35,857 nucleotides of DNA. It comes from a bacterium (lineage in GTDB: Bacteria > Electryoneota > AABM5-125-24 > Hatepunaeales > Hatepunaeaceae). The DNA lies in the NCBI GenBank assembly GCA_025774605.1, contig JALGVR010000035.1, positions 1 to 35,857 of the forward strand. Direction: 5' to 3'. Both the position numbers and the translations under genes were made by a program. Below the pieces are notes generated by a model, which was given only the letters and a program-made list of their open reading frames with translations, had not been told where the DNA came from and did not search any database. Below are positions 25,726 through 35,622 of this stretch, in pieces. How positions within the stretch are numbered: the first letter of the stretch is position 1; every line of letters begins with the position of its first letter.

Positions 25726-26994
25726 CTATCCGATCGTGCTCCTCACCATTTGTGCATCGATCTTCAACGACTTCCAGACCTCATCCAGATCAATGCCCTC
25801 GATTCCCAGCGCTTTCAGCGATATCCGACTGGGATCGTCGGGCACGGTGTTGCCGCTTTTGCCGATCTTGTTCCAGTGGCAAAAGATATTCGCCAGGTGC
25901 GCCAGGTGAACCTCCTTCTCCTCAATGCCGGCTTGCTCAGGCGTATGATGATACTTGATGGCATTTACCAAAGGTATCGGGAGATTCCAACTGTCCGCCA
26001 CCATGGCGCCCACTTCTCCATGCTCGATATCGGCGAGTTCAAGTGAGACGTGATGCAGCGGCTGCTTGCGCCGCGCGGCTTCCGCCAAAATCCGGTAGAA
26101 CACATCCCGGAAATGCTGACGCATCGCCACCTTGCCGAAATCGTGCAGAAGTCCGACCACGAAGGCGTCCTTGGATATAACTTCGTCCGTGTATCGGCTC
26201 AAGGCGCGGGCTATGTATGCCGAACCGATGGAATGCAGCCAGAATTTATCCCTGTCAAACAGGAAATTCCTTCCATTCTCGCAAAAATGCAGCAGGCTCG
26301 CCGCCAGCGCAATGTTCACCACCTCGTCGAAGCCCATAACCACGATGGCGTGATCGATGTTGCCGATCTGGCGGTGAAAGCCGTAAAAGGCGCTGTTGAC
26401 AATCTGTAATATCTTCGCCGTGAGCGATTGATCCCTCTTAACCTCCTCGGCAAGGTTCTTGGCTGACGAGTGCGGATCATTGCTGATCGCCAGGATCGAT
26501 TTGGCAAGGGCGGAGAGCGGTGCGAGCGAATCGATTCTGCTTAACTTGGCGCGGATCTCGGACGGGTTGATTATGGTGGAGTCTTTCTTCTTTCCTCCAC
26601 CGCTGGGAAAGATTTCCGCTATGGTTCTGCTGAGTAGAATCTGGCTTAACGGTTTGGTCAGGATATTGTTCGCCCCGAGATTTTTCGCCTGCACGGATAA
26701 CCTGGCTGAGATCTCATCAAGGCAGACTATGACCGGTATCTCCTTCCAGGTGGTACGGGTTCTGATCGCCTGCAGGAGCTCCGCGGCCGTGAGATGTTCA
26801 AGTGTCCAGTCGGTTATGATCAGGTCCGGCTGATCCTGCGAAATGTGCTGAATTGCCGCCCGCACGTCAACCACCGGCACGACCAGGCAATCCCTGATCC
26901 GGTTGAGCATCTGGCTCGTCTGCTTAAGCTGCAGGACCGACCTGCTTGCCAGTAATATCTTCAGCCTCTTTCCGCCGTTGAAATCCGTGGACAT
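25726..26994 (-). CDS. Response-regulator-like REC domain fused to HDOD domain (cassette 1)
   Basis: REC: PDLIITDWTLEHLTAAELLQAIR...GANNILTKPLS; HDOD: DQSLTAKILQIVNSAFYGFHRQIGNIDHAIVVMGFDEVVNIALA...VGLLHDFGKVAMRQHF. Confidence 0.88.
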   Translation of the reverse strand: MSTDFNGGKRLKILLASRSVLQLKQTSQMLNRIRDCLVVPVVDVRAAIQHISQDQPDLIITDWTLEHLTAAELLQAIRTRTTWKEIPVIVCLDEISARLSVQAKNLGANNILTKPLSQILLSRTIAEIFPSGGGKKKDSTIINPSEIRAKLSRIDSLAPLSALAKSILAISNDPHSSAKNLAEEVKRDQSLTAKILQIVNSAFYGFHRQIGNIDHAIVVMGFDEVVNIALAASLLHFCENGRNFLFDRDKFWLHSIGSAYIARALSRYTDEVISKDAFVVGLLHDFGKVAMRQHFRDVFYRILAEAARRKQPLHHVSLELADIEHGEVGAMVADSWNLPIPLVNAIKYHHTPEQAGIEEKEVHLAHLANIFCHWNKIGKSGNTVPDDPSRISLKALGIEGIDLDEVWKSLKIDAQMVRSTIG

Positions 26995-28667
26995 TAATCT
27001 ACCTGTTCAACCGGTAACGTGATAAAAAAGGTTGTACCTTCACCGGATTTGGTGTCAAAATGTATTTTTCCTCCATACGGTTCTATGAGCGACAGCGAGG
27101 ATGAAAGACCGAGCCCGCTGCCGGAGATCAATTCAGCCTGTTCATCCTCTTCACTGTTTTTCGTGGTGAAGAACGGTGTGAATATCCTGTCACGGACATC
27201 TTCCGGTATTCCACCGCCCGTGTCGGATATCGCCACAACAATATCCCCGCTCTTCTCCCTGTATTCAGTTCGAATTCCCAAGACCTTCCTGGGGCTGTTT
27301 CGCATGGCGTCCAGGGCGTTGTAAACGATGTTCATGATGGCCTGGGAAAAATCTCCGTATATACCCTTGACCGGCGGCAGCTTTTTATCGAATTCATATC
27401 TCTTCTCCACCTGATTCTTGAAGTACGCATTGGCATTGAGGAAGGTCAATTCGCAATTCAGCAGTTCGTTCAGATTGATGTTCACCCGCTTCGTGTTGCG
27501 TTCACGGCGCACCTTGTCCAGAAGGTTATTGATGATTTCCGTTATATTCCTGGTTGATTGTTCAATCGCCTCCAGCCCCGGCAGTTCCATCCCCTTCAGT
27601 TTCAGGATTTCCAGGTGTCCCATGGCGACGTGAACCGGATTCTGCAGGTTATGCACAATCCCCGAAACATAGAGCCCGAGTTGAGACAGCTCTCTCTGCC
27701 GCATCAGCTTCATGCGCATCTCCATCTCGAGCTTCTCCCTTTCGCCGCGCCTCTTTTCAGTAACGTCATGCATGTACAACCGGACAACGGCGATCCCCCC
27801 GTCCTGCCGCAGTCGCACATTTCCGGACAGCTCGAGCTCAAGCAGTCCTCCGTCACCTGATTTCACGTTCATATCAATATTATTGACCGCCTGCCCTTCG
27901 ATTAAACGCAGCCAACTGGAATAAAATGAATCACCGCCATCTTCTTTCAACAGATTCTCGATGTGGTCTCCGCGCGGATCGCACTGAATCTTCAATTTCT
28001 CCTTGAACATCCGGTTACAGTCCTTGATCAATCCTTCCGGAAACACCGAGACAACCATGTCCGATGAATTCTCGAAGAGGTCCTTGAACTCCTCTTCAGA
28101 GTTGAGCAGTCTCGTGTAGAGCATACGGTTGCGCGCCCCCGCCAACACCAGTCCGCCGATGGTATCGAGCAGTCGATTGGTCTTTTTATGTGACAGGCGG
28201 ATCACCGGATCGATCAGGGTGAAAGCGCCAATGTGGTCGTCATCGCCTTTGATCGGCAGCGCGGCAAGCCTCACTTTCTGCAGCGCATCCGAACCCCATA
28301 TCTTTATTATCTCCTCGTCCTCGACCTCTTCGACGTAGAACGGTTTTATCTGCTCCTCCACCCAATCCAGGATTCCCGCCCGCGAGCGGGGGATGAAATC
28401 CGTAACGGGACTGAAACTTCCGTACCGATTCGCCCATGAATCGAGTATCCAGCCGCTTGGTTCACGGTGCCGAAGCCAGAAGAAGGCACAAATCGACGCC
28501 TTGAAGATATTGGCAAAACTCGAACAGACCTGCGAGAAGTAATCCGGTTCATTCAGGTTCCTGACAATCGCTTCAGCCACCAGCCGGACCACGGACATCT
28601 GGTAGGTTTTAGCCTCGTTGTCCTTGGTCAGGGACTCTATCAGCTCACGATAGTTCGAGTTTTCCAA
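26994..28667 (-). CDS. GAF-PAS sensor histidine kinase (cassette 1)
   Basis: TTG start with AGGAG upstream; H-box GLYVSGIVHNLQNPVHVAMGHLEIL; N-box DFSQAIMNIVYNALDAMR; G-boxes ISDTGGGIPEDV, GSGLGLSSSLSLIEPYGG; TAATG overlap with REC-HDOD gene. Confidence 0.9.
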   Translation of the reverse strand: MENSNYRELIESLTKDNEAKTYQMSVVRLVAEAIVRNLNEPDYFSQVCSSFANIFKASICAFFWLRHREPSGWILDSWANRYGSFSPVTDFIPRSRAGILDWVEEQIKPFYVEEVEDEEIIKIWGSDALQKVRLAALPIKGDDDHIGAFTLIDPVIRLSHKKTNRLLDTIGGLVLAGARNRMLYTRLLNSEEEFKDLFENSSDMVVSVFPEGLIKDCNRMFKEKLKIQCDPRGDHIENLLKEDGGDSFYSSWLRLIEGQAVNNIDMNVKSGDGGLLELELSGNVRLRQDGGIAVVRLYMHDVTEKRRGEREKLEMEMRMKLMRQRELSQLGLYVSGIVHNLQNPVHVAMGHLEILKLKGMELPGLEAIEQSTRNITEIINNLLDKVRRERNTKRVNINLNELLNCELTFLNANAYFKNQVEKRYEFDKKLPPVKGIYGDFSQAIMNIVYNALDAMRNSPRKVLGIRTEYREKSGDIVVAISDTGGGIPEDVRDRIFTPFFTTKNSEEDEQAELISGSGLGLSSSLSLIEPYGGKIHFDTKSGEGTTFFITLPVEQVD

Positions 28668-28770
28668 GACTCGATTCTCCTGTTGAAAATCACTGCGACA
28701 TCCCGATGTTTTCTTTCATGCCTCAATCCTCTGAGGAAGTTTGAGTGTTGTCAGAAGCTCAATATCAACA

Positions 28771-28790
28771 TACTCTACCACCATGGAGTA
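28771..28790. promoter_or_regulatory. Palindrome copy 1, TACTCTACCACCATGGAGTA
   Basis: Inverted repeat, same family as three other copies. Confidence 0.7.
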
Positions 28791-28860
28791 ACCTTAAAAT
28801 TTCGCACAAAATGTCCATCCAATAAAGGCTTGTGGTCAACGAGGGAAATTAATCTGTGTT

Positions 28861-28880
28861 TACTCTATTACTATAGAGTA
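28861..28880. promoter_or_regulatory. Palindrome copy 2, TACTCTATTACTATAGAGTA
   Basis: Perfect 7-bp arms with 6-bp spacer. Confidence 0.8.
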
Positions 28881-28955
28881 ACCCTGAATTATCCCCAAAA
28901 AATACCTTCTGTTGGAAGGAGCGAAATAAATCGGTCTGGATCTGATCCCAAATAT

Positions 28956-28975
28956 TACTCTATGGTCGTAGAGTG
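28956..28975. promoter_or_regulatory. Palindrome copy 3, TACTCTATGGTCGTAGAGTG
   Basis: Same family; sits 12 bp downstream of the -10 of the predicted promoter. Confidence 0.8.
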
Positions 28976-28987
28976 ATACTTGGTTCG

Positions 28988-29016
28988 AATATACGATTTT
29001 ATCTCGGCTTTGTCAA
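28988..29016 (-). promoter_or_regulatory. Sigma70-type promoter for cassette 1, TTGACA-N17-TATATT
   Basis: Minus strand TTGACAAAGCCGAGATAAAATCGTATATT; -35 at 29011-29016, -10 at 28988-28993. Confidence 0.75.
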
Positions 29017-29055
29017 GAGAAAAATCACGGTTTATCACTTAAACTGGGCAAACGG

Positions 29056-30312
29056 TTATTCCAGGATATCCCTTAGATGCATTGGATCCATTTTCAACGA
29101 CTGCCAGAATTCATCCAGTTGATCTTCCTTAATGCCAAGCCTCAGCAGTGAGAGATAATTCGGTTCGTCAGCAACGCTGTTGCCGCTCTCGCCGATTTTG
29201 TATCGATGACAGAAGAAATTTGCCAGGTGTGCCACATCGATCTCCCGACCGTCCTTATCAACCGACTCAGGGCGGTGGTGATAACGGATCGCCCTGACCA
29301 GCGGAAGGGGCAGCTTCCAGCTCTCAGCGACCATTCCGCCTATCTCGGCGTGATCGGTACCGGTGAGCTCGCGGCAGACCTCGTGCAGCGGTCGTTGTTG
29401 ATCCTCCGCCGTCTTAATCATATGGTGAAATTCCTCCCTGAAGTGCTGATTAAGAACCACCTTTCCGAAATCGTGCAGTAAGCCCATCACAAAGGCATCC
29501 CTGGGGGACAGATCGTTTAACCGCTTGCTCAGGGCGCGAGCGATATGGGCAGTTCCCAGCGAATGGCCCCAGAATTCCTTCCGGTTGAGAGCGCTGTCAT
29601 CCTCCGTATCGAATGCCTCCATCAGACACACAACTTGGGCGATGTTCATGATCTCATCGAAACCGAGCACGACGATGGCGCGATCGACATTCCCGATCTC
29701 GCGGTGGAACCCGTAATAGGCAGAGTTGGCTATCTTCAGTATCCTGGCCGTGATCGATTGGTCCTTCTTGATCTCTCCGGCGAGATCGCGAGCCGATGAA
29801 TTGGGGTCCTTGAGCAGGTCCATAATCTTGGCGGCAAGGGAGGGCAGGGGTGCAAGGAGGTGTATCTGCTCAAGTTTTGCCTTTATCTTCCTGTAATCAA
29901 ACGGGGTATTGCCTTTCACCTGCCGTCTTGAGACCGGGAAAAATCCTGCCAATATCCTGCTGAGGGCGTTCTGGTTTAATGGTTTGAACAGAACCTGCGC
30001 CGCGCCCAGAGTCAATGCCTGTTCCGTTAAGTCCCGATCGGATTCATCGAGGGTGATTAAAACCGGAATACGTTTCCAATCATCATTCGTTCTCATAGCC
30101 TGAAGCAGGTCGGATGCAGTATGTGACTCAAGTTGCCAGTCCGCGATAACCAGGTCCGGTTTATACTGGATGAAATATCGTAAGGATTTGTGAACACTGT
30201 CCTTGTGTTCGATCTCACAAGGTCGGATTCGTTGCAGCATCAGGCAGGTTTCACTCTTGAACACGGTTGACCCGGTTATCAAAAGTACTTTCAATCTTTC
30301 AGAATGATTCAT
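29056..30312 (-). CDS. REC-HDOD protein (cassette 2 paralogue)
   Basis: REC: PDLVIADWQLESHTASDLLQAMR...AAQVLFKPLN; HDOD: DQSITARILKIANSAYYGFHREIGNVDRAIVVLGFDEIMNIAQ...MGLLHDFGKVVLNQHF. Confidence 0.88.
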   Translation of the reverse strand: MNHSERLKVLLITGSTVFKSETCLMLQRIRPCEIEHKDSVHKSLRYFIQYKPDLVIADWQLESHTASDLLQAMRTNDDWKRIPVLITLDESDRDLTEQALTLGAAQVLFKPLNQNALSRILAGFFPVSRRQVKGNTPFDYRKIKAKLEQIHLLAPLPSLAAKIMDLLKDPNSSARDLAGEIKKDQSITARILKIANSAYYGFHREIGNVDRAIVVLGFDEIMNIAQVVCLMEAFDTEDDSALNRKEFWGHSLGTAHIARALSKRLNDLSPRDAFVMGLLHDFGKVVLNQHFREEFHHMIKTAEDQQRPLHEVCRELTGTDHAEIGGMVAESWKLPLPLVRAIRYHHRPESVDKDGREIDVAHLANFFCHRYKIGESGNSVADEPNYLSLLRLGIKEDQLDEFWQSLKMDPMHLRDILE

Positions 30313-32000
30313 GATTTCCTTGCCTTCCTGCCCTTTGCTGTCACCTTGAAGGTAATATAAAAGGTTGTACCCTCACCGGGGATTGATTCATAGCTTATGG
30401 ACCCCTGATAAGGCTCCAGCAGGGATCTGGCGCTGGACAATCCCAGGCCGCTGCCGGAGGATAATCCATTCTTGGCGTCTTCGGAGCCTCCCTTGGTGGT
30501 GAAGAACGGTTCGAAGATCCTGTCGCCGACATCTTGCGCAACTCCCGGTCCGCTATCCGAAATGGATAACCTGACCTCACCCTGTCCGCTGTCGAACTCG
30601 GTCCGAATGGTCAGTTGCCTGTGCATGCTCCCCTTCATCGCATCGAGGGCATTGTAGACGATGTTCATGATCGCCTGGGAAAAATCGCCGTACAGTCCCT
30701 TCAACTTCGGCAGGTTGTCGGCAAAGTGAAATTCCTTCTTGACATCATGTTTGTAGAACATATTGGCTTCAAGGAACTTCAACTCGCTCTGAAGCAGCCA
30801 GTTCAGGTCAACATCTGTCGGTTTGGTGTTTCTCTCCCGACTGATCTTATCGAGCAGGTTCCCGACGATTCCGGTGATATTGTTAGTGTGTTCTTCAATT
30901 ATTCCAACCTCGGGAGAATCGACACCCTTCTTTTTAAGTAAGGTGAGATGTCCCTGGATGATATGGATCGGATTCTGCAGATTGTGCGCAATTCCGGTCA
31001 CATAGAGACCCACCTGGGCGAGCTCCCGCTGTCGCATCAGTTTCACCTTCATTTCGAGCTCGCGGCTTAACCGTTCATTACGGCGTTTCTCCGTCACGTC
31101 GCGAAGGTAGAGCCTTATGAAACCGACACTGCCGTTTGTCTGGAAATTGACATTGCCGGACAGCTCGGTTTCTATGTATTTTCCGTTTTTACCCTTGAGC
31201 AGCACATCGACGTTCTGTACTTCCTCACCCTTAATCAGCTTCGCCCAGCATCTGCTGAAATTGCCGCCCGGTTCCTCCTTGATCAAATCGGTAAAAATGT
31301 TGTCGGACGAATCGCCTTTAACCCCCAACTTCTTTCTGAACGCCTGATTGCAATCCCTGATAACCCCGTCCGGGAACACCACCACCGCCATGTCGGATGC
31401 GTTTTCGAACAGGTCGTAAAACGCCTCTTTTGCATCGTGCAATCCCTTGTAGAGGACGCGATTGTTGAATCCCGACTTGATCAGGCTGCTCAATATGTGA
31501 ATAAACCGGATGATGTTCTTGCTTGACATGTGCATGATCGGGTCGATAAGGACGATTGCACCCATTTTAAGATCGTCGAAGTTGACCGGTATCAGGGCGA
31601 ATCTCACCTTGTCAGGCACGTTTGGTCCCCAGAATCTGATGGCCGGGTCGTCCTCAACATTTTCAAGGTAGAGTGGATTGTCGCGCTGACGGACCCATTC
31701 CAGCAATCCCTCTTCATGCTCGGGAAGCAGGTCGGATACAGGATACAGACCGCTCGAGCCGCCCGCCCAAGCCTCCAGCCACCAGCCCGACGGCTCCCGG
31801 CGTCGAAACTGAAACAGCGCACAGACGGATGCTTCAAATATCTGCAGAAAATCGGAGCAGAGCCTGGTGAAATAGCCTGTGTCCTGCAATCCACTGACCA
31901 CAGACTCCGCCACCAGGCGGACTATCGACATCTGGTAAAGGTTTTCCTCGTTTTCCCTGGTGAGGGCGTCAATTATTTTGCGTAGGTTCTCACTTTCCAA
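30309..32000 (-). CDS. GAF-PAS sensor histidine kinase (cassette 2 paralogue)
   Basis: TTG start; H-box GLYVTGIAHNLQNPIHIIQGHLTLL; DFSQAIMNIVYNALDAMK; ISDSGPGVAQDV; GSGLGLSSARSLLEPYQG; ATGA overlap with REC-HDOD gene. Confidence 0.9.
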   Translation of the reverse strand: MESENLRKIIDALTRENEENLYQMSIVRLVAESVVSGLQDTGYFTRLCSDFLQIFEASVCALFQFRRREPSGWWLEAWAGGSSGLYPVSDLLPEHEEGLLEWVRQRDNPLYLENVEDDPAIRFWGPNVPDKVRFALIPVNFDDLKMGAIVLIDPIMHMSSKNIIRFIHILSSLIKSGFNNRVLYKGLHDAKEAFYDLFENASDMAVVVFPDGVIRDCNQAFRKKLGVKGDSSDNIFTDLIKEEPGGNFSRCWAKLIKGEEVQNVDVLLKGKNGKYIETELSGNVNFQTNGSVGFIRLYLRDVTEKRRNERLSRELEMKVKLMRQRELAQVGLYVTGIAHNLQNPIHIIQGHLTLLKKKGVDSPEVGIIEEHTNNITGIVGNLLDKISRERNTKPTDVDLNWLLQSELKFLEANMFYKHDVKKEFHFADNLPKLKGLYGDFSQAIMNIVYNALDAMKGSMHRQLTIRTEFDSGQGEVRLSISDSGPGVAQDVGDRIFEPFFTTKGGSEDAKNGLSSGSGLGLSSARSLLEPYQGSISYESIPGEGTTFYITFKVTAKGRKARKS

Positions 32001-32191
32001 GGTAAACGATGTCCTCTCTTAAGATTGATTACACCAAAGGAGCTTCAACTGTTACGCGCTGCCATCTGAACGCATCCGGCACAACCTGACGTTTCACCGG
32101 CAAACTCTTTGAACTGATAATGTCAAGCTGGTTTTATGTTGATCGTGAAATATCAAGTAATTATAAGATTCTTGTTGTCGTTTTCAATATG

Positions 32192-32211
32192 TACTCTATG
32201 GTTATAGAGTG
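32192..32211. promoter_or_regulatory. Palindrome copy 4, TACTCTATGGTTATAGAGTG
   Basis: 18/20 identical to copy 3; 11 bp downstream of the predicted -10. Confidence 0.8.
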
Positions 32212-32222
32212 CTTTTGGAAAG

Positions 32223-32251
32223 AATATATGCAATCAATATTATTTTGTCAA
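32223..32251 (-). promoter_or_regulatory. Sigma70-type promoter for cassette 2, TTGACA-N17-TATATT
   Basis: Minus strand TTGACAAAATAATATTGATTGCATATATT; -35 at 32246-32251, -10 at 32223-32228. Confidence 0.75.
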
Positions 32252-35008: not shown

Positions 35009-35341
35009 TTAATAACCTGAAAGAATTTCGCTGATATGCTGCTTAAGGATCGGAATGTCATTCTGGGTCACATCCCAAACGGCGTTTAAATCAACAGCCA
35101 TATAATCGTGTATCAATATGTCTCTCAGTCCGGCAATGCGTCTCCATTGAACCTCGGGATGACTATTCCGTAATTCAGTAGACAGGCGTTTGCTTGCTTC
35201 ACCAATGATTTCCAATTTCCGGATAACCGCATCCTGCCAGTGTGTCTGTTCCATGAACACGACCCGCCCGATTGATGTATATTCTTGTATCTTCTGGATG
35301 GCGTCGTCAATATGCTTTAGATAGAGTCTGTCGCTTTTCAC
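35009..35341 (-). CDS. hepT: HepT-like (HEPN/DUF86) toxin ribonuclease
   Basis: RX4HXY motif RDILIHDY; helical HEPN pattern; overlaps upstream nucleotidyltransferase gene. Confidence 0.85.
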
Positions 35342-35622
35342 AACGGAACCGCTTCTTCAAGGATGTCATCCCGAATATACGGACTTAAACCGGCTTCGGT
35401 GACAACGTCAACCTTGATTCCGAGCAAGTCTTCCAAGTCCTGCTGCATAGCGATAAGGTCCAACAGCGATCGTCCTGCTTCCAATTCGATAAGAATGTCG
35501 AGGTCGCTGGACTCCGTCGCTTCACCGCGTGCTGCTGAACCGAAGACGCGGATGTTACGCCCGCCGTATTGAGTTATAATGCGGGCTATGGATTCGCCGT
35601 ACTGATGAAACTTATTCTTCAT
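35338..35622 (-). CDS. mntA: MntA-like minimal nucleotidyltransferase antitoxin
   Basis: GSX10DXD motif: [20 protein letters not shown]; 4-bp overlap with hepT. Confidence 0.85.

Follow-up and report, generated by a model that had tools for sequence, protein, structure and literature searches.

A conserved promoter–dyad module appears to link pilus, surface-protein and sensor-kinase genes to a candidate wHTH-only MerR-type repressor

Introduction

Most MerR proteins with effector domains activate promoters, and the operators of the family are typically dyads of about the size of the 20-bp palindromes described here. In classical MerR activation, the dyad lies inside a −35/−10 spacer of 19–20 bp (PMC9938897). 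MerR-type repressors acting on palindromes at transcription start sites are also known: CvkR, at the promoter PtnsB, uses a palindrome at the start site/−10 of a promoter with a 17-bp spacer and blocks initiation, and HnoC and McdR are cited in the same paper as MerR-type repressors with start-site palindromes (PMC9938897). HspR, also of the MerR family, represses its own promoter, where its operator, HAIR, is an inverted repeat (PMC6102357). BldC, a wHTH-only relative, is a monomer that reads direct repeats, and GlnR and TnrA, which have no coiled coil, are summarized in the BldC paper as dimerising on a palindrome through their N-termini (PMC5859096).

Here we analyse a promoter–dyad module found twice in a 35,857-nt contig (JALGVR010000035.1 of assembly GCA_025774605.1; the window) from a bacterium of the Hatepunaeaceae, phylum Electryoneota, together with its candidate regulator, a 77-residue MerR-type protein encoded elsewhere in the genome. 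As with CvkR, HnoC and McdR, a MerR wHTH is paired with a palindrome that overlaps or adjoins the start site or −10, the promoter spacer being normal and the starts here predicted. Unlike CvkR, which carries a dimerisation and possible effector domain and has a motif of 15 nt, AnnACATnATGTnnT, the 77-residue protein ends after the wHTH, and the site, ACTC-N10-GAGT, lies before pilus operons. HspR offers a second parallel, since it is a MerR-family autorepressor acting at an inverted repeat in its own promoter, as is proposed here, but HAIR is CTTGAGT-N7-ACTCAAG, with the arms in reverse order, and HspR regulates other target genes. With BldC the protein shares the form of a stand-alone MerR wHTH of about 70–80 residues, with no coiled coil or effector domain and no helix after the wHTH; the conserved site, in contrast to the head-to-tail direct repeats of BldC, is an inverted dyad with symmetric covariation. 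Because BldC is a monomer on direct repeats, dyad binding by a wHTH-only protein is not automatic. GlnR and TnrA (PDB 4r4e) likewise place a MerR wHTH without a coiled coil at a palindrome, but they have N-terminal extensions, C-terminal tails that bind glutamine synthetase, and another operator and physiology. A literature search covering open papers found no MerR regulator of PilM/secretin operons.

Two kinase cassettes carry the same promoter–dyad module

The window contains two cassettes, each of a histidine kinase and a response regulator, with the following features:

30309..32000, minus strand: cassette 1 histidine kinase (PAS, HisKA and HATPase_c domains), 563 aa
29056..30312, minus strand: cassette 1 response regulator with HDOD output domain, 418 aa
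26994..28667, minus strand: cassette 2 histidine kinase, 557 aa, 50% identical to the cassette 1 kinase
25726..26994, minus strand: cassette 2 response regulator with HDOD output domain, 422 aa
32246..32251, minus strand: −35 TTGACA of cassette 1, exact match; TTGAC is invariant in 15 modules
32223..32228, minus strand: −10 TATATT of cassette 1, exact match, 17-bp spacer
32192..32211, minus strand: putative operator dyad of cassette 1, CACTCTATAACCATAGAGTA; module score 47 bits
29011..29016, minus strand: −35 TTGACA of cassette 2, exact match
28988..28993, minus strand: −10 TATATT of cassette 2, exact match, 17-bp spacer
28956..28975, minus strand: putative operator dyad of cassette 2, CACTCTACGACCATAGAGTA; module score 50.9 bits
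28861..28880, minus strand: second dyad in the cassette 2 leader, TACTCTATAGTAATAGAGTA, exact motif match, without a strong promoter of its own
28771..28790, minus strand: third dyad in the cassette 2 leader, TACTCCATGGTGGTAGAGTA, one mismatch to the motif

On the minus strand, the cassette 2 module (29016–28956) reads TTGACA-N17-TATATT-N12-CACTCTACGACCATAGAGTA and the cassette 1 module (32251–32192) reads TTGACA-N17-TATATT-N11-CACTCTATAACCATAGAGTA. Both are exactly as an earlier note on this DNA had described them, with identical −35, −10 and spacer length, and the two dyads indeed differ at 2 of 20 positions. On both strands of the window, exact TTGACA-N17-TATATT occurs only at these two modules, with about 0.002 matches expected from base composition, and TACTCTA-N6-TAGAGTA with up to three mismatches occurs at four places, against 0.22 in shuffled sequences, none of which reached four.

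The same note held that conservation is restricted to the promoter elements and the palindrome, and comparison of 15 full modules from this and related genomes bears this out. Mean pairwise identity is 98% for the −35, 82% for the −10, and 80%, 81% and 94% for the left arm, centre and right arm of the dyad, falling to 30% in the spacer and 38% between the −10 and the dyad. The −35/−10 spacer is 17 bp throughout, except for 18 bp in one case (genome G003), and the distance from the −10 to the dyad varies from N7 to N13.

The second and third dyads of cassette 2, which the earlier note does not mention, lie 95 and 185 bp downstream of the promoter's own dyad, before the kinase gene. The leader (28667–28975) thus holds three dyads, their centres 95 and 90 bp apart. 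Tandem dyads also occur elsewhere: on contig C25 of this genome (164 bp apart), on contigs C317 (~345 bp) and C360 (101 bp) of the related genome G002, and in a further relative, G004 (31 bp). Multi-operator control is possible at such places.

Seven modules in the genome stand at pilus, surface-protein and signalling genes

Across the 2.83-Mb genome, dyads with at most two mismatches occur at 12 places, against one for a reversed control, and 9 of the 12 fall in the proposed regulon. The full module has seven copies:

Modules 1 and 2, window: the two kinase/response-regulator cassettes
Modules 3 and 4, contig C25, in tandem: before the MerR-type gene that heads a pilus operon
Module 5, contig C123: before a prepilin-like gene (N-terminal methylation motif)
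Modules 6 and 7, contig C173: before two loci for giant Ig-repeat secreted proteins

The genome-wide scan proposed in the earlier note, for which abundance and random placement were the adverse outcome, finds a motif that is rare and sits at promoters. The remaining two-mismatch dyads (C31:14189, C154:4759 and C173:34977) lack a full module and were treated as chance matches.

On contig C25, the first gene encodes the 77-aa MerR-type protein and overlaps a gene for an ExeA-like ATPase; further genes on the same strand encode PilM-like, PilO, T2SSB-like, secretin, invasin-repeat, PilT-like and MshEN/GspE-type ATPase proteins. Judged by its predicted products, this operon encodes an MSHA-like type IV pilus or type II secretion machine. 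The C173 loci encode secreted proteins of more than 2,400 residues with Ig, PKD and cadherin-like repeats. After one of their modules (C173:28295; L007:7604–8069), the frame stops at 92 residues and a 2,533-residue Ig-repeat frame opens nearby; either the gene itself has a frame break here or the assembly is faulty.

The module accompanies a MerR gene within the family and in distant phyla

A pattern built from the sites of this genome only found matches in five other genomes of the family, in each case with at least one directly upstream of the MerR orthologue; one further match lies in G002, at its kinase cassette. The orthologue occurs in seven family genomes, and in all of them a module stands upstream of it. 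Two family genomes without the orthologue lack both the module and the orthologous operon, and because all three are absent together, presence and absence cannot separate the regulator from the operon. With a module model run on nine genomes, the 15 sites, which also trained that model, scored 39.5–52 bits, and the next best site scored 20.6 bits.

The pairing extends beyond the phylum. A profile search of 386 genomes found 10 MerR orthologues outside it, 35–61% identical and each with an ExeA-like gene following it (10 of 10), and a scan of genome contigs identified relatives as Calditrichaeota/Caldithrix MAGs and one Neomarinimicrobiota MAG. In 16 of 18 MerR–ExeA loci, the distant phyla included, ACTC-N10-GAGT lies no more than 160 bp upstream, where 0.03 such loci would be expected. 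The dyad of one remaining locus is slightly past 160 bp, and the last locus is at a contig edge with half-sites present. The sequence itself shows the module, how conserved it is, where it lies and how constantly it is paired with the MerR gene. In every genome the site is closest to the merR gene, which in most of them is its sole target. Of the 17 genomes that have the regulator, 10 match a strict promoter–dyad pattern, as do 15 of the 369 that lack it; the pattern's reversed control gives about as many hits, which are scattered.

The outer ACTC and GAGT of the dyad are invariant across loci, and the inner arm positions change symmetrically, with a covariation score of 0.247 against a shuffled mean of 0.085 (0 of 500 shuffles as high). 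Three cells contributing to this score are T opposite G, a combination without symmetry in DNA. Ten sites have A at arm position 7 and a MerR protein with N at residue 22, in the second wHTH helix; the 7 sites with C or T at that arm position go with K. This link between protein and site is suggestive, and the split tracks two clades, hence it is not independent evidence. In the family the dyad starts 7–13 bp past the −10, and in the distant group it starts at the predicted −10 or inside it; the leader from dyad to gene varies from 2 to 289 bases.

Two arrangements upstream of merR genes stand apart from this common pattern. In three genomes only (G234, G366 and G091; loci L126, L127 and L128), an extra direct half-site, CCATTGAGTA, lies about 21 bp, or two helical turns, downstream of the first copy, which may hint at cooperative filling. 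In the Neomarinimicrobiota genome J089 (L114, upstream of 5001), the right half of the dyad AACTCAAGAACCATTGAGTA recurs in inverted orientation, as ACTCAATGGTTCT, a short way upstream of the dyad.

The candidate regulator is a MerR DNA-binding domain

The earlier note placed the cognate regulator outside the window, and the candidate gene does lie elsewhere:

G000:C25:38121-38354, minus strand: MerR-type gene, 77 aa, outside the window

The protein scores 46.5 bits against Pfam MerR_1 (cut-off 21.6), its AlphaFold model (pLDDT 92.9) is a wHTH ending after the fourth helix, and the nearest folds are MerR DNA-binding domains, so that we assign it with confidence to the DNA-binding domain of the MerR superfamily. 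It lacks both a coiled coil and an effector domain, and the orthologues, of about 74–87 aa, all end after the wHTH.

Several other identities were considered and rejected. A classical MerR activator does not fit, as all orthologues lack the long helix/coiled coil and effector domain, and the dyad lies downstream of the −10 or overlaps it rather than inside a 19–20-bp spacer. Identity with HspR fails on the family model (23.4 bits; cut-off 105), and the operator differs too. BrlR, the best fold match, contacts c-di-GMP through R31, D35, Y40 and R67 in its DNA-binding domain (PMC6028453). In an alignment read by eye with a 2-residue chain offset, using the BrlR residues from that paper, these align with A34, R38, L43 and A70; the contacts are not conserved, and control by c-di-GMP as in BrlR was set aside. 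Domain analysis of the cassettes' response regulators found HDOD as the output and no DNA-binding domain, and control of the module by these proteins was rejected as well.

Proposed mechanism and alternatives

We propose that the module is a sigma-70-type promoter which, with its optimal 17-bp spacer, would fire unaided, followed by a putative operator, ACTC-N10-GAGT, between the −10 and about +25. The cognate regulator would be the wHTH-only MerR-type protein encoded on C25; we infer that it binds the dyad and that it reads it without the MerR coiled coil. Because the spacer has 17 bp and the dyad sits at the −10 or where transcription is predicted to start, repression is the natural reading: the bound protein most likely blocks RNA polymerase or transcription start, a reading that draws on the analogy with known repressors. 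The ancestral target would be the protein's own operon, merR-exeA-pilM-pilO-secretin, under autoregulation. In the genome studied here, the site would then have spread to the prepilin-like gene, the two giant Ig-repeat loci and both kinase/HDOD cassettes, with the outcome of one regulon joining pilus, pilin, surface proteins and signalling cassettes. We regard this model as a whole, from promoter and dyad to autoregulatory repressor and extended regulon, as probable on the comparative sequence evidence.

The principal alternative, which we consider improbable, is that the dyad is the operator of another regulator of pilus genes and that merR is only the first gene of its main target operon. 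The joint gain and loss of module, merR and operon speaks for this. Against it, the site is closest to merR everywhere and mostly has no other target, as is usual under autoregulation; apart from MerR, no DNA-binding protein of the locus accompanies the site from phylum to phylum; arm position 7 of the site and residue 22 of the recognition helix change in step, in two clades; and MerR-family operators, from general knowledge and PMC9938897, are dyads of similar size.

A little less plausible still is that the same MerR protein binds as an activator. General knowledge of the family favours activation, as noted above for members with effector domains, but the classical mode requires a 19–20-bp spacer that contains the dyad (PMC9938897), and here the spacer is 17 bp (18 once) with the dyad downstream of the −10.

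The earlier note had read the palindrome either as an operator covering about +5 to +25 or as a 5′ RNA hairpin. Comparative genomics strongly supports the operator. For a 5′ mRNA hairpin controlling stability or translation, one can cite the position of the family dyad just past the predicted start, its constant orientation and its nearly invariant promoter-distal half. Among the 15 modules, however, no base pair is altered in both arms at once, and changes in the left arm disrupt pairing; the dyad of the distant genomes reaches or overlaps the predicted −10, so that its left arm would stay untranscribed; and the leader from dyad to gene has no fixed length. Because left-arm changes are uncompensated and the distant-group left arm lies outside the RNA, a hairpin is very unlikely.

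That the window modules are alike merely through recent duplication of the cassettes, which are paralogous (kinases 50% and response regulators 49% identical), is already refuted: the kinases are about as distant as orthologues in other genera, spacer identity is 30% against 80–98% for the elements, and the module also stands at unrelated genes and in other genera. Because paralogue identity is about as low as that between orthologues in other genera, the cassette duplication is old.

Returning to the autoregulatory MerR repressor, we think it somewhat likely that it represents a cross-phylum class, in which a stand-alone MerR wHTH reads an inverted ACTC-N10-GAGT without a dimerisation domain and serves as a dedicated autorepressor of ExeA/secretin–pilus operons, its operator having spread in some lineages to pilins, giant adhesin-like proteins and two-component systems and so coupling pilus building to sensing. 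The work provides a candidate regulator–operator pair for the type IV pilus/secretin operons of phyla that have been little studied and are for the most part uncultivated. It suggests a second working mode for MerR proteins cut down to their DNA-binding domain, on an inverted dyad as opposed to the direct repeats of BldC. The operator is compact and predictable, so that pilus and surface regulons could be called from sequence alone, and the suggested link between operator position 7 and recognition-helix residue 22 is directly testable.

The cassette locus in relatives and its neighbourhood

At the syntenic locus, from por genes to FAD/2Fe-2S oxidoreductase genes, G002 has a single cassette, accompanied by the module and one further dyad. 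G003 also has a single cassette there, but without the module, a point against the proposed model. The G002 HDOD response regulator (L056:5554-6813, minus strand) has glutamate at the expected phospho-accepting aspartate (PDLIITEW, against PDLIITDW in the window), perhaps making it a locked-on form. Elsewhere in the window, 35009–35622 on the minus strand encodes a HepT/MntA-type toxin–antitoxin pair (HepT-like and NTP_transf_2 domains); the same 29-base promoter-like sequence, ATGAAACTTATTCTTCATACGAAAATATT, stands at both 35605 and 35649.
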